DNA from: Aeromicrobium sp. 9AM
GTDB taxonomy: Bacteria; Actinomycetota; Actinomycetes; Propionibacteriales; Nocardioidaceae
Direction of reading: 5' to 3'
Length of the DNA stretch: 64,000 nt
NCBI RefSeq assembly: GCF_902506105.1
Contig: NZ_LR733304.1
Location: 2,801,832-2,865,831, forward strand
A model generated the notes under the pieces. That model worked only from the letters and a program-made list of their open reading frames with translations. It was not told the origin of the DNA and did not search any database. This document shows, piece after piece, positions 42,792-53,615 of this stretch. Every line of letters starts with the position of its first letter. The stretch's first letter is position 1. Made by a program: the position numbers and the translations under genes.

Positions 42792-44408
42792 TTACTTCGA
42801 CAGTGACGTGAAGCGGAACTTGAACGCGGGGTCGAGAGTCTCCTCGACGCCCTTGACGTCCGTGCCCGCCACCGCGACCTGTGCGCCGGTGAGCAGCGGC
42901 AGGATCGGCACCTGGTCAGCGACCAGGTCCTGGATCTTGCCGAGCGTCGCGACACGCGAGGTCTTGTCGGCGTCCGTGGCTTCCGACTTCAGCAGCTTCG
43001 TCATCTCCGGCACCGGGTTGTCCTTGGCCGAGAAGTTGTAGTGCGACTGCAGGAAGTTGTTCTCACCGAAGAACGGCGTGACGTAGTTGTCAGCGTCCGG
43101 GAAGTCCGGGAACCAGCCGAGCTGGAACATCGGGTAGGCATCCTTGACGCGCTCCTCGGAGTACGTGACGTACTCCGTGGACTGCAGGTCGACCTTGAAC
43201 AGGCCGGTGTCCTCGAGCTGACGCTTGACCATGTTGTACTCCTCGGTCGACGAGGAACCGTAGTGGTCGGTGTTGTACTGCAGCTTCAGCGTGACCGGGG
43301 TCTTGACTCCGGCGTCGTCGAGGAACTTCTTGGCCTCGTCCTTGTTGGGCTTGTCGCCATACTTGTCCTTGAACGGCTCCGTGGCGCCGACCTGGCCCTG
43401 CGGGACGGCCGAGTACGCCGGCGTGTAGGTGCCCTTGTAGACCTGCGTCGAGAGCTCGTCGCGGTCCAGCGAGGACGCCATCGCCTGGCGGATCGCCAGC
43501 TTCTGGTCGTCGTCGTCGCCGGGCATCGTCTTCATGTTGAAGACGATGTAGCGCAGCTCGCCACCGGCACCCTTGTGGACCTTGACCTTGTCGTCCTTGC
43601 TGAGGCTGGCGATGTCGGTCGGGGTCAGCGAGCGCCACGCGACGTCGATCTTGCCGTTCTGGACGTCGAGTTTCAGGTTGTTGGCGTCGGCGTACGTCGA
43701 CAGCGTGATCGTCTTGGTCTTCGGCTTGTTGTAGGCACCGTCGTAGGTGTCGTTGGCCTTGAACTCGGCGATCTGGCCCTTGGTGTACTTGCCGATCGTG
43801 TAGGGACCGGAGAAGCCCTGCGCCTTGACCGCGGCGTCATCGTCCAGGACCTTGTCGGCCGGGTAGGTCTCCTCGTCGACGATCGGTCCGGCGGAGGTGA
43901 CGAGCACCTGGCCGAACGTCTGGTCGTTGGGCGAGTTGAGGGTGAACGTGACCGTCTTGTCGTCCGTGGCCTTGACCGACTTCATGTTGCCGAGCAGCGA
44001 AGCCGGGCCGTTGGGGTCGTTGATCTTGACGATGCGGTTGAAGGAGAACGCGACGTCGGACGCCGTCAGGGCGTGGCCGTTGGCGAACTTCAGCCCGTCC
44101 TTGATCGTGCAGACGTACTCGGTCGGCTGCGCGAAGTCACACTTCGACGCGGCGTCGGGCGTGAGCGTCGTGCTGCCGGCCGGGAAGTTGAGGAGGTACT
44201 GGTAGACCTGCGTCTGCACCGTCAGCGAGCCGTTGTCGTACGAGCCGGCCGGGTCGATCGAGACGACCTTGTCGGTCGTGCCGACGACGAGGTTCGAGCC
44301 ACCCGCGTCCTTGTTGTCGTCGTCCTTGCTTTGTCCACACGCGGCCAGCGCAAGGCCGGCGAGCGCAGACACCGCGATGATCGCGGTACCACGACGGAAG
44401 TTCTTCAT
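42792..44408 (-). CDS. Peptide ABC transporter substrate-binding lipoprotein (DppA/OppA family)
   Basis: The 538-residue SBP_bac_5 protein starts with a lipoprotein signal peptide (IIAVSALAGLALAACGQ; lipobox LAAC, cysteine at about residue 24), then an acidic linker (SKDDDNKDAGG). The family blocks VVSIDPAGSYDNGSLTVQ, YVCTIKDGLKFANGHALTASDV and QLGWFPDFPDADNYVTPFF follow. It would capture peptides or similar solutes at the outer membrane face and deliver them to the DppB/fused DppCDF complex. ATG 44408 follows a GGAGAGC sequence. Confidence 0.94.
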   Translation of the reverse strand: MKNFRRGTAIIAVSALAGLALAACGQSKDDDNKDAGGSNLVVGTTDKVVSIDPAGSYDNGSLTVQTQVYQYLLNFPAGSTTLTPDAASKCDFAQPTEYVCTIKDGLKFANGHALTASDVAFSFNRIVKINDPNGPASLLGNMKSVKATDDKTVTFTLNSPNDQTFGQVLVTSAGPIVDEETYPADKVLDDDAAVKAQGFSGPYTIGKYTKGQIAEFKANDTYDGAYNKPKTKTITLSTYADANNLKLDVQNGKIDVAWRSLTPTDIASLSKDDKVKVHKGAGGELRYIVFNMKTMPGDDDDQKLAIRQAMASSLDRDELSTQVYKGTYTPAYSAVPQGQVGATEPFKDKYGDKPNKDEAKKFLDDAGVKTPVTLKLQYNTDHYGSSSTEEYNMVKRQLEDTGLFKVDLQSTEYVTYSEERVKDAYPMFQLGWFPDFPDADNYVTPFFGENNFLQSHYNFSAKDNPVPEMTKLLKSEATDADKTSRVATLGKIQDLVADQVPILPLLTGAQVAVAGTDVKGVEETLDPAFKFRFTSLSK

Positions 44409-44932
44409 TGCTCTCCTACGAGTCGAGCCGCAACGCGTGGTTGCGGCGGGATTGTCCACATGATGGGACTGAGCCTTCCCGCACGCTACACGCGCCCGTG
44501 GTGGCTGAACCGACCTGCCAGATTGCATTTTGGTTACTGATTCGCAGGCCGCGACGGCGGCGCGGGGCGAAAGGAAGAGGCAGGGCGGGCCCTGTGCGGC
44601 GGTCGGTGCGACGGCAGCTCAGTCGACGCCCGAGGATGTTGAGAACTTGGGAGTTCCTCGGAGCGAGTACGCGGGAGGGAGATCCCACGGCTGCAGGGCC
44701 CTGCCCTGACCCTGCAATCCTTCCGTACGGATCGGCGGATGGGTGAGGGACCTAAGTCCCGAATGCTGTCGGCGTACGGCCCCGCACGCCATCGAAAGGA
44801 CTAGACCGGACTAGTCATTCCGACGGAATTCGCAGGATCGCCTGGCCCGAACGAGTGGATTCTGCGAGCCGGCGCCCGAATTCGTGACGTTGCCTTCACG
44901 CAGGTCGTTAATCTGCGCATCGGAAGGATCCC
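44409..44932. other. Long intergenic region between dppA and the DosR-like gene
   Basis: This 524-base gap contains no convincing protein gene. It holds the promoter of the peptide-binding lipoprotein on one side, a 12-bp palindrome GCAGGGCCCTGC (44693-44704), a DosR-box-like palindrome (44744-44763) and an inverted GACTAGTC (about 44810-44817) closer to the regulator. Confidence 0.6.
44744..44763. promoter_or_regulatory. DosR/DevR-box-like palindrome
   Basis: TGAGGGACCTAAGTCCCGAA matches 17 of 20 positions of the known mycobacterial DosR motif TTSGGGACTWWAGTCCCSAA, with the GGGAC/GTCCC half-sites intact. It lies 259 bases upstream of a DosR-like regulator gene. Confidence 0.65.
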
Positions 44933-45025
44933 ATGCACGTCACTCCCACGATCGTGGTCGTTGAACCATCGGGTCCGCTTCCGTACGCCCCTCGCCATGC
45001 GCTGATGCCCAGGGGCACGCCGTGA
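44933..45025 (+). CDS. 30-residue ORF overlapping the response regulator start
   Basis: ATG 44933 is preceded by GGAAGGA at five bases, a good ribosome binding site. The ORF reads MHVTPTIVVVEPSGPLPYAP and ends in MPRGTP; its stop TGA overlaps the GTG of the next gene (GTGA at 45022). The start looks like a receiver-domain beta strand (TIVVVEPSG), so it may be a degenerate remnant or a leader peptide that couples translation to the regulator. No family is recognised. Confidence 0.4.
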   Translation: MHVTPTIVVVEPSGPLPYAPRHALMPRGTP

Positions 45026-45654
45026 TCAGGGTCTTCGTGCTCGACGACCACGAGGTCGTGCGTCGCGGCCTGCGGGACCTCCTCGAGGAGGACGGTGACG
45101 TCGAGATCGTCGGCGAGGCCGCTCTGGCTGCCGACGCCCTGCTCCGCATCCCGGTCGTCAACCCCGACGTCGCGGTGCTGGAGGCCCGTCTCCCCGACGG
45201 GTCGGGCATCGACGTGTGCCGTGCGGTTCGCGCCGCCCACCCCGACATCGCGGTCCTGATCCTGACGGCGTACGACGATGACGAGGCGCTGTTCGCGGCG
45301 ATCATGGCCGGCGCCGCGGGCTACCTGCTCAAGCAGGCGCGTGCGCCAGAGCTCGTCGCGGCAGTACGTCAGGTGGCGAGCGGCAAGTCGTTGCTGGACC
45401 CTGGCGTGACCCAGAAGGTCCTGGCCAGGATTCGCGACGGTGAACCACCCGCCGACCCCCTCGACCTGCTGACTCCGCAGGAGAGCCGCATCCTCGAGCT
45501 GATCGGTGAGGGCATGACCAACCGGCAGATCGCCGACGAGATGTTCCTGGCGGAGAAGACGGTCAAGAACTACGTCACGCACCTCCTCGCCAAGCTCGGA
45601 CTCAAGCGCCGCACCCAGGCCGCCGTGCTCGCAGCGAAGCGGCGCCGGTCCTAG
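45022..45654 (+). CDS. DosR/DevR-like NarL-family response regulator with Glu at the phospho-acceptor site
   Basis: The 210-residue protein has a receiver domain (residues about 1-120) and a LuxR/NarL helix-turn-helix (about 145-205). The recognition segment [11 protein letters not shown] and [15 protein letters not shown] closely resemble mycobacterial DosR. Acidic D8 and D9 and the conserved K of YLLKQ are present, but the phospho-acceptor position reads VLEARLPDG with E54 instead of Asp (codon GAG at 45181). Glutamate often mimics phospho-aspartate, so activity may be constitutive. No histidine kinase is encoded nearby. The GTG start overlaps a 30-codon ORF. Confidence 0.88.
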
Positions 45655-45688: not shown

Positions 45689-46966
45689 ATGAGCCACAAC
45701 CAGCATCTCTCCGAGTTCGACCCTGACATCGCCGCGCTCCTCGACGCCGAGCTGCACCGTCAGCAGTCGACGCTCGAGATGATCGCGTCGGAGAACTTCG
45801 CGCCCGTCGCCTCGCTCGAGGCACAGGGCAGCGTCCTGACCAACAAGTACGCCGAGGGCTACCCCGGCAAGCGCTACTACGGTGGTTGCGAGTTCGTCGA
45901 CCAGGTCGAGACCATCGCGATCGACCGGCTCAAGGAGCTGTTCGACGCGGGCTACGCCAACGTGCAGCCGCACTCGGGCGCCACCGCCAACGCCGCAGCG
46001 CTGCACGCGATCGCCACTGCCGGCGACACGATCCTGGGCCTCGACCTCGCCAACGGCGGTCACCTGACCCACGGCATGAAGCTCAACTTCTCCGGCAAGC
46101 TCTACAAGCCCGTCGCCTATCACGTCGTGCCGGAGACCGGCCTCGTCGACATGGACGAGGTGCGCACCCTCGCGCACGAGCACCAGCCGACCGTCATCAT
46201 CGCCGGCTGGTCGGCGTACCCCCGCCAGCTCGACTTCGCGCTGTTCCGCGAGATCGCCGACGAGGTCGGTGCCAAGCTGTGGGTCGACATGGCGCACTTC
46301 GCCGGACTGGTCGCCGCCGGCCTGCACCCGAGCCCGCTGCCGCACGCGCACATCGTCACGACCACGACGCACAAGACACTCGGCGGACCCCGTGGCGGTG
46401 CGATCCTGACCAACGACGAGGACATCGCCAAGAAGATGCGCTCCGCGGTGTTCCCCGGCCAGCAGGGTGGTCCGCTCGAGCACGTCATCGCCGCCAAGGC
46501 CGTGGCGTTCAAGATGGCCCTCGAGCCGGAGTTCAAGGAGCGCCAGGAGCGGACGATCGAGGGCGCCAAGATCCTCGCCGAGCGCCTGGTCGCTGCCGAC
46601 ACGCGCGCCGCGGGCGTCAACGTGCTGACCGGCGGCACCGACGTGCACCTCGTGCTGGTCGACCTCCGCGAGTCCGAGCTCGACGGTCAGCAGGCCGAGG
46701 ACCGGCTCCACGAGGTGGGCATCACGGTCAACCGCAACGCCGTGCCCAACGACCCCCGCCCGCCGATGGTGACCTCGGGTCTCCGCATCGGCACGCCGGC
46801 ACTCGCCACGCGCGGGTTCGGCGCCGAGGAGTTCACCGAGGTCGCCGAGATCATCGCCGCTGCACTGCTGCCCGGCGACGTCGACATCGAGGGACTGCGC
46901 AAGCGGGTGACCGTGCTGGCCGAGCGCTTCCCGCTCTACCCGGACGTCGCGCCCTTCATCAAGTGA
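45689..46966 (+). CDS. glyA: Serine hydroxymethyltransferase
   Basis: This 425-residue PLP enzyme interconverts serine and glycine with transfer of a one-carbon unit to tetrahydrofolate. Blocks include [32 protein letters not shown], the PLP lysine K229 in [14 protein letters not shown], and [28 protein letters not shown] element eight bases before the ATG may give a near-leaderless transcript. No riboswitch-like structure is seen in the 34-base gap upstream. Confidence 0.97.

Positions 46967-51833: not shown

Positions 51834-53615
<1,782 letters not shown>

Follow-up and report, generated by a model that had tools for sequence, protein, structure and literature searches.

Regulator gene and its phospho-acceptor position

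What becomes of a DosR-type response regulator when the aspartate that should receive the phosphate is replaced by glutamate? The question is raised by a gene of Aeromicrobium sp. 9AM (genome G000), located in a stretch of 64,000 nucleotides that was analysed as a whole and is called the window here. An earlier note on this DNA had described an orphan DosR-like regulator and proposed that it is kinase-independent and possibly constitutively active. The gene and the codon concerned are as follows.

45022..45654, + strand: DosR-type response regulator RR1, with a receiver (4-116), a LuxR/GerE domain (149-204) and Glu at position 54
45181..45183, + strand: Glu54 codon GAG, replacing the phospho-acceptor Asp; D54 is present in the best 80 relatives and in 57 other regulators of the genus

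The open reading frame has a GTG start and encodes 210 amino acids. Pfam assigned Response_reg (PF00072, residues 4-116) and GerE (PF00196, residues 149-204) domains, and the top PDB match was Mycobacterium tuberculosis DevR/DosR (3c3w, E 2e-68), a full-length match aligned over residues 2-210 in which VLEARLPDG of the regulator lies opposite VLDVRLPDG of DevR. The identification of a DosR-like protein with Glu at the phospho-acceptor was thus confirmed. Among the catalytic residues Asp54 alone is altered; D8, D9, T82 and K104 are retained, in agreement with the earlier reading of the flanking acidic residues and the conserved lysine, and Y101 is kept as well. The recognition helix carries K179, K182 and N183, which we take to be the DNA-contact residues of DosR-type proteins. 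K182 is also named as such in PMC5999986.

In its domains, DevR match, recognition helix and switch residues T82, K104, D8 and D9, the protein is of the DosR/DevR type. It departs from that type at Asp54 and in having no GAF-type DosS/DosT kinase beside it, and both of its sister species lack T82. As a receiver domain without a phosphorylatable Asp it also belongs among the aspartate-less receivers, or pseudo-receivers. Membership of the MadR family (NCBIfam NF047785) was rejected, the score being 165.9 bits against a curated cut-off of 300 bits.

In a scan of GTDB contigs, D54 was found in all of the best 80 of 581 confirmed relatives. The genus set comprised 49 Aeromicrobium genomes, with 58 regulator matches at E<=1e-60 in 44 of them, and all 58 were read. 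Asp54 is present in 57, the sole exception being the G000 regulator. Among the sequences searched, Glu54 is present in this one genome only and is not shared by orthologues in relatives, a point that the earlier note had proposed to check. A degenerate DNA pattern for [VL]LE[AG]RLPDG, covering that spelling of the motif, gave two matches in 341 genomes of the family, namely the G000 regulator gene and a site in G041. The latter was rejected as a second case, as receiver-like sequence was absent from the three forward frames around the match. The corresponding D pattern, searched in the genus, gave 29 matches in 27 of the 49 genomes. On these counts, Glu54 is not ordinary variation in the DosR-type family.

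Kinase gene at the locus

The position of the regulator gene was compared with that of its relatives, using the following features.

42792..44408, - strand: divergent solute-binding protein (SBP) gene (SBP_bac_5), synteny anchor; the mechanical open reading frame reaches 44528
44409..45021, no strand: stretch separating the SBP gene from the regulator gene, in which relatives have a GAF-type HisKA_3 kinase gene (from synteny and kinase domains)
45689..46966, + strand: glyA (serine hydroxymethyltransferase), synteny anchor

The SBP gene start at 44408 was our choice, based on a lipoprotein-like start. In relatives, the order is the divergent SBP gene, a GAF-type histidine kinase gene, the regulator gene and glyA. 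This is the arrangement in A. stalagmiti, whose kinase gene lies directly 5′ of the regulator gene, between the SBP gene and glyA; the GlyA and SBP of G044 are 100% identical to those of A. stalagmiti (L013). The kinase gene was found between the SBP and regulator genes in nine of the 12 fetched loci and was missing in exactly three, those of G000, G010 and G020. The loci of G030 and G039 lie at contig ends and were assigned no kinase state.

The kinase of G023 has GAF, HisKA_3 and HATPase_c domains. Its sole match in the G000 genome at E<=1e-15 was a 35% identical kinase that is the partner of a second DosR (DosR2), so a move of the kinase gene to another place in G000 was rejected. The genome-wide search for DosS/DosT-like kinases proposed in the earlier note thus found one, and the absence of a sensor kinase held for the locus, where the gene has been lost, but not for the genome. 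In G020, neither a match to the G023 kinase at E<=1e-40 nor a second DosR at E<=1e-60 was detected.

The regulator tree unites the three species without the kinase gene (100/99) and places G023, which has it, next to them (98/92); this tree carries a warning of long branches meeting. The GlyA tree agrees on the kinase-less clade and its sister (99/81 and 100/99). Since both trees give a single kinase-less clade, one loss is enough, and the kinase gene was lost in the ancestor of these three Aeromicrobium species.

Control region and upstream open reading frame

The interval left upstream of the regulator gene contains four elements.

44747..44760, no strand: DosR-type palindrome GGGACCTAAGTCCC, a word unmatched elsewhere in the genome at 0-1 mismatch
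44799..44816, no strand: second inverted repeat, GACTA-N8-TAGTC, with conserved arms and a variable centre among the three kinase-less species
44922..44928, + strand: Shine-Dalgarno-like GGAAGGA before the upstream open reading frame, recognized by eye
44933..45025, + strand: 30-codon upstream open reading frame, putative kinase-gene remnant and translational coupler; its TGA overlaps the GTG of the regulator gene (GTGA)

The DosR box of M. tuberculosis has the form GGGAC..GTCCC. Both sisters carry the counterpart GGGACCTAAGTCCT of the palindrome, and GGGACTTAAGTCCC is found upstream of the G023 kinase gene. The palindrome is kept in all three kinase-less species, including G020, which has no DosR2 match, and its retention there favours self-regulation. 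Judged from its place and sequence, 44747-44760 looks like a local DosR-type operator.

Perfect GGGACN4GTCCC dyads numbered nine against two in the reversed control in both G000 and G023, and were hardly above the control in G010 (3 vs 1) and G020 (3 vs 2). Gene assignments cover four of the nine G000 dyads: one is the site upstream of RR1, and three are at the DosR2 cluster, before the cytochrome bd subunit I gene, between the universal stress protein (USP) gene and the partner kinase gene DosS2, and near the zinc alcohol dehydrogenase gene.

The genome search that covered the palindrome word also revealed a dispersed G000 element, in which the arms GCGGTGACTTAGGGCCCA and TGGGCCCTAAGTCACCGC flank a central segment of about 15 bases (for example C6:398480-398524, C6:796010-796054 and C7:1008821-1008865; L138, L143, L155). 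The arm GGGCCCTAAGTCAC accounts for 16 of the 33 rows of that search and has no match in the window. The element could be a repeat family or terminator-like.

The upstream open reading frame of the sisters has 29 codons and a three-base gap, with the same stop/start overlap. In G023, the stop of the kinase gene forms this GTGA overlap too, and the kinase tail VPRSRP resembles the MPRGTP of the G000 frame. The frame is plausibly a kinase-gene remnant that keeps translation coupled to the regulator, a descent suggested by the position of its start and stop and by the short tail similarity, which is seen in G000 only; its codons are poorly conserved between species.

Changes in the receiver and conservation of the DNA-binding part

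Both sisters, the nearest orthologues of the G000 regulator at 83% identity, keep D54. The earlier note had held that Asp in all close orthologues would speak for a strain-specific error, and this is literally what was found; yet both have lost T82, R56 and A89. T82 is present in 56 of the 58 genus regulators, the exceptions being G010 (T82S) and G020 (T82A), and D54 and T82 are both kept in all 55 regulators outside the clade. Hence one of these two residues is altered in 3/3 members of the kinase-less clade, by D54E in G000, and in 0/55 others. S83A and L6V are common to the three clade regulators; position 83 is Ser or Thr in all 55 others.

We compared the clade with positions that are invariant elsewhere in the genus. 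Two partial G030 rows (L117, L215), counted among the 55, were left out of this test and of the regulator tree. Sixty-one positions are invariant in the 53 remaining complete rows (37 in the receiver, nine in the linker, 15 in the DNA-binding part). The clade altered six of the 37 receiver sites (L6, V13, D54, R56, T82, A89) and none of the 24 in the linker and DNA-binding part, a contrast of few sites with shared ancestry. Individual clade proteins are altered at two, four and five invariant sites. When each of the 53 others was compared with the remaining 52, no site was altered in 45 rows, one in seven and two in one. Against a narrower background of 18 kinase-paired rows with 115 invariant sites, the clade members are altered at six, nine and nine sites; of these 24 changes, 21 affect the receiver, while the linker accounts for two (V129A, once in each sister) and the DNA-binding part for one (Q187H, in G000).

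The clade regulators also diverged rapidly. At GlyA distances of 0.009-0.019 they differ by 0.067-0.171 (three pairs), and kinase-bearing regulator pairs by 0.009-0.079 (six pairs). Their distance to the G023 regulator is 0.224-0.248 (three pairs). The G023 regulator, which has its kinase, is also fast (branch 0.27; pN/pS against G048 and G044 0.26-0.35), which speaks against a clean reading, and the acceleration may predate the kinase loss. Between G010 and G020, the receiver pN/pS is 0.19, and the DNA-binding part has no nonsynonymous change at a dS of 0.22. Selection thus still acts on the clade regulators. The overall pattern, with T82 lost in both sisters, is breakdown of the switch across a clade without the kinase and not a lone anomaly.

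Second DosR/DosS pair and regulators separated from a kinase

The DosS-like kinase of G000 lies beside DosR2 at C7:1695055-1697316, away from the regulator locus. DosR2 (C7:1696699) is 65% identical to RR1 and adjoins its own kinase, DosS2, and a USP gene. G010 likewise has a DosR2, together with a DosS2-like kinase. The surrounding G000 cluster (C7:1681910-1715197; L158, L159, L160, L163) holds USP, cytochrome bd and zinc alcohol dehydrogenase genes, and with palindromes near three genes it resembles a compact hypoxia-type regulon.

Six genomes (G011, G018, G031, G032, G041, G042) have the regulator gene beside glyA with no adjacent kinase. All six regulators keep D54 and T82, with 0/61 invariant sites altered in each, and each of the six genomes contains a DosS2-like kinase with 45-54% identity to DosS2. 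No DosR-like regulator was found within about 3 kb on either side of these kinases (the G032 contig is 4.1 kb). The regulator and kinase of these species (L164-L169, L195-L200) may therefore work in trans, with the phospho-switch intact. In G013, about 9.5 kb separate the kinase from a DosR2-type regulator, which likewise keeps D54 and T82. The rule that every kinase-separated regulator loses its Asp was therefore rejected. Loss of the neighbouring kinase alone is insufficient, because the six kinase-separated regulators show no such changes; these comparisons suggest that the absence of any free kinase in the genome fits better than separation alone. G011 stands apart from the other five in the GlyA tree, so separation may have happened twice in this group, although the regulator tree joins all six.

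A further observation concerns the kinases of nine genomes (G016, G024, G009, G004, G014, G003, G005, G017, G045; L218-L226), which match the G023 kinase only partly, over residues ~12-187 in the listed match. This hints at a different kinase architecture. The adjoining regulator in these genomes has F101 instead of Y101.

Proposed explanation and alternatives

We interpret RR1, with moderate confidence, as an orphaned DosR-type regulator caught after the loss of its DosS-like kinase, whose output would be set by its level and autoregulated. In sequence terms, the kinase gene between the SBP and regulator genes was lost in the ancestor of the three species, and the switch residues of the receiver are now altered differently in each line, with the DNA-binding part and the palindrome retained. 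The G000 regulator would take up no phosphate at position 54, and would still dimerise and bind its own palindrome without phosphorylation. The amount of regulator rather than a kinase would determine output, through its own promoter and autoregulation at 44747-44760, with translation coupled to the 30-codon kinase-gene remnant. Glu54 may add partial activation through contacts with T82 and K104, both of which are kept in G000. Independence of the G000 regulator from Asp phosphorylation, proposed in the earlier note and strengthened by the loss of the kinase gene at the locus, is well supported at the level of sequence comparison and is the likeliest reading. The sisters, which keep D54, could still receive phosphate from small molecules or from a different kinase.

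The proposal that the protein is a constitutively active phosphomimic, in which Glu54 alone locks the receiver in its active state at native level, partly overlaps with the orphan reading. Glu is the commonest substitution in aspartate-less receivers (26%, PMC4395418), and T82 and K104, the presumed contacts of a Glu mimic (PMC12632262), are kept in G000. For DevR, D54E is cited as binding DNA in vitro like the phosphorylated form (PMC5999986), and when overexpressed it gave more hspX transcript than the wild type (PMC4973870). However, earlier work retold in PMC4973870 found no hspX induction by D54E at native level in BCG, and according to PMC4395418 and PMC12632262 Glu is a phosphomimic in some receivers only, often failing to activate by itself (PMC4395418). 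The sisters, moreover, altered T82 with D54 kept, which would be no phosphate mimicry; what the three lines share is loss of the switch. The proposal is thus unsupported as it had been stated, and we regard permanent activity through phosphate mimicry as possible, although unlikely and not the safest reading. It is less probable still that the altered protein is non-activating and acts as a brake, occupying DosR-type operators or forming mixed dimers with DosR2. The DosR2/DosS2 pair of G000, the corresponding genes of G010 and the recognition-helix residues KTVKN, present in all three clade regulators, are compatible with such a role, but G020 keeps the gene and the palindrome with neither a second DosR nor a DosS-like kinase at the thresholds given above.

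Replacement of the kinase by a different input, such as Ser/Thr phosphorylation at the C-terminal helix, acetylation or a ligand, seems improbable to us. In M. tuberculosis, PknH phosphorylates T198 and T205 of DosR (PMC12919924), and a PknB-like PASTA Ser/Thr kinase gene is located at 51834-53615 in the window. All three clade regulators retain T198, but 45 of the 55 others do too, so its presence does not set the orphans apart, and T205 is Ala in G000. Early decay under relaxed selection on a gene heading for loss is given similarly little weight. It would agree with the altered receiver sites that are otherwise invariant and with the receiver pN/pS of 0.25 between G000 and the sisters, above most kinase-paired comparisons without G023 (0.05-0.18); against it, the frame is intact in three species, the DNA-binding protein sequence is identical between G010 and G020, and the palindrome and coupled start are kept. 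A one-base sequencing or assembly error (GAG for GAC/GAT), or a meaningless strain-private change, is very improbable. E54 occurs in a single genome and the codons for Glu and Asp differ by one base at the third position, but the gene belongs to a clade in which both sisters altered T82, it shares S83A and L6V with them, and the genome is 99.99% complete in nine contigs.

Returning to the orphaned regulator, the clade might further be viewed as a natural series from a two-component system to a one-component, concentration-gated switch, with the kinase gene shrunk to a translation-coupling leader of 30 codons, the operator kept for self-drive and the phospho-switch abolished by D54E, T82S and T82A. 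We offer this extended view tentatively and have some doubt about it. Two of its three routes, D54E and T82A, match known DosR laboratory mutants.

The genus contains three states: kinase adjacent; kinase elsewhere, with the switch intact (6/6); and kinase lost where the genome has no DosS-like kinase left free, with the switch altered (3/3). Because these states occur in one genus, the idea of kinase loss followed by erosion of the switch and retention of DNA binding is directly testable in environmental bacteria. The clade supplies natural D54E and T82A/S variants of a regulator type studied in dormancy, and is a small natural test case for a signal-controlled switch becoming signal-independent.

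Comparison with known systems

We found no work on this regulator in the Aeromicrobium two-component literature, among the papers listed and judged by title or abstract start, and none on a DosR-type regulator among the listed titles on kinase loss with orphan regulators. Nor did we meet, in the literature consulted, a within-genus series of such states with different lesions at the two DosR-mutant residues.

RR1 resembles DevR/DosR of M. tuberculosis (3c3w) in domain order along the full length and in its recognition helix. It also resembles OsdR of Streptomyces coelicolor, whose operator is a 16-nt palindrome of related form and whose two-component genes lie near USP genes (PMC5069765). Unlike both, the G000 regulator has Glu54, S83A and L6V and no kinase at its locus. 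The ordinary DosR of G000 is the paralogue DosR2, with its perfect GGGACN4GTCCC palindromes.

Aspartate-less receivers are already known, the Glu replacement included. RR1 is like ChxR, RitR, BldM, WhiI and others in lacking the phospho-Asp and in being encoded by an orphan gene, and its Glu is the commonest replacement in this class (PMC4395418, PMC12632262). A 2025 review counts 18 of 20 bacterial pseudo-receiver cases as orphans, describes many independent origins and calls the activation mechanisms a mystery (PMC12632262). In contrast to those proteins, RR1 has changed only Asp54 among its catalytic residues, the arrangement with the kinase can still be seen in the sister species G023, and Asp54 is retained in the two kinase-less sisters, whose lesions are different ones.

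The closest parallel at the residue level is with DevR mutants made in the laboratory. D54E, D54V and T82A all activate when overexpressed, D54E and T82A without phosphorylation, T82A fails to activate from the native promoter, and DevR is positively autoregulated (PMC4973870). The same two residues, 54 and 82, are affected in Aeromicrobium; unlike the laboratory mutations, these changes are natural and are spread over different species of a single clade without the kinase.
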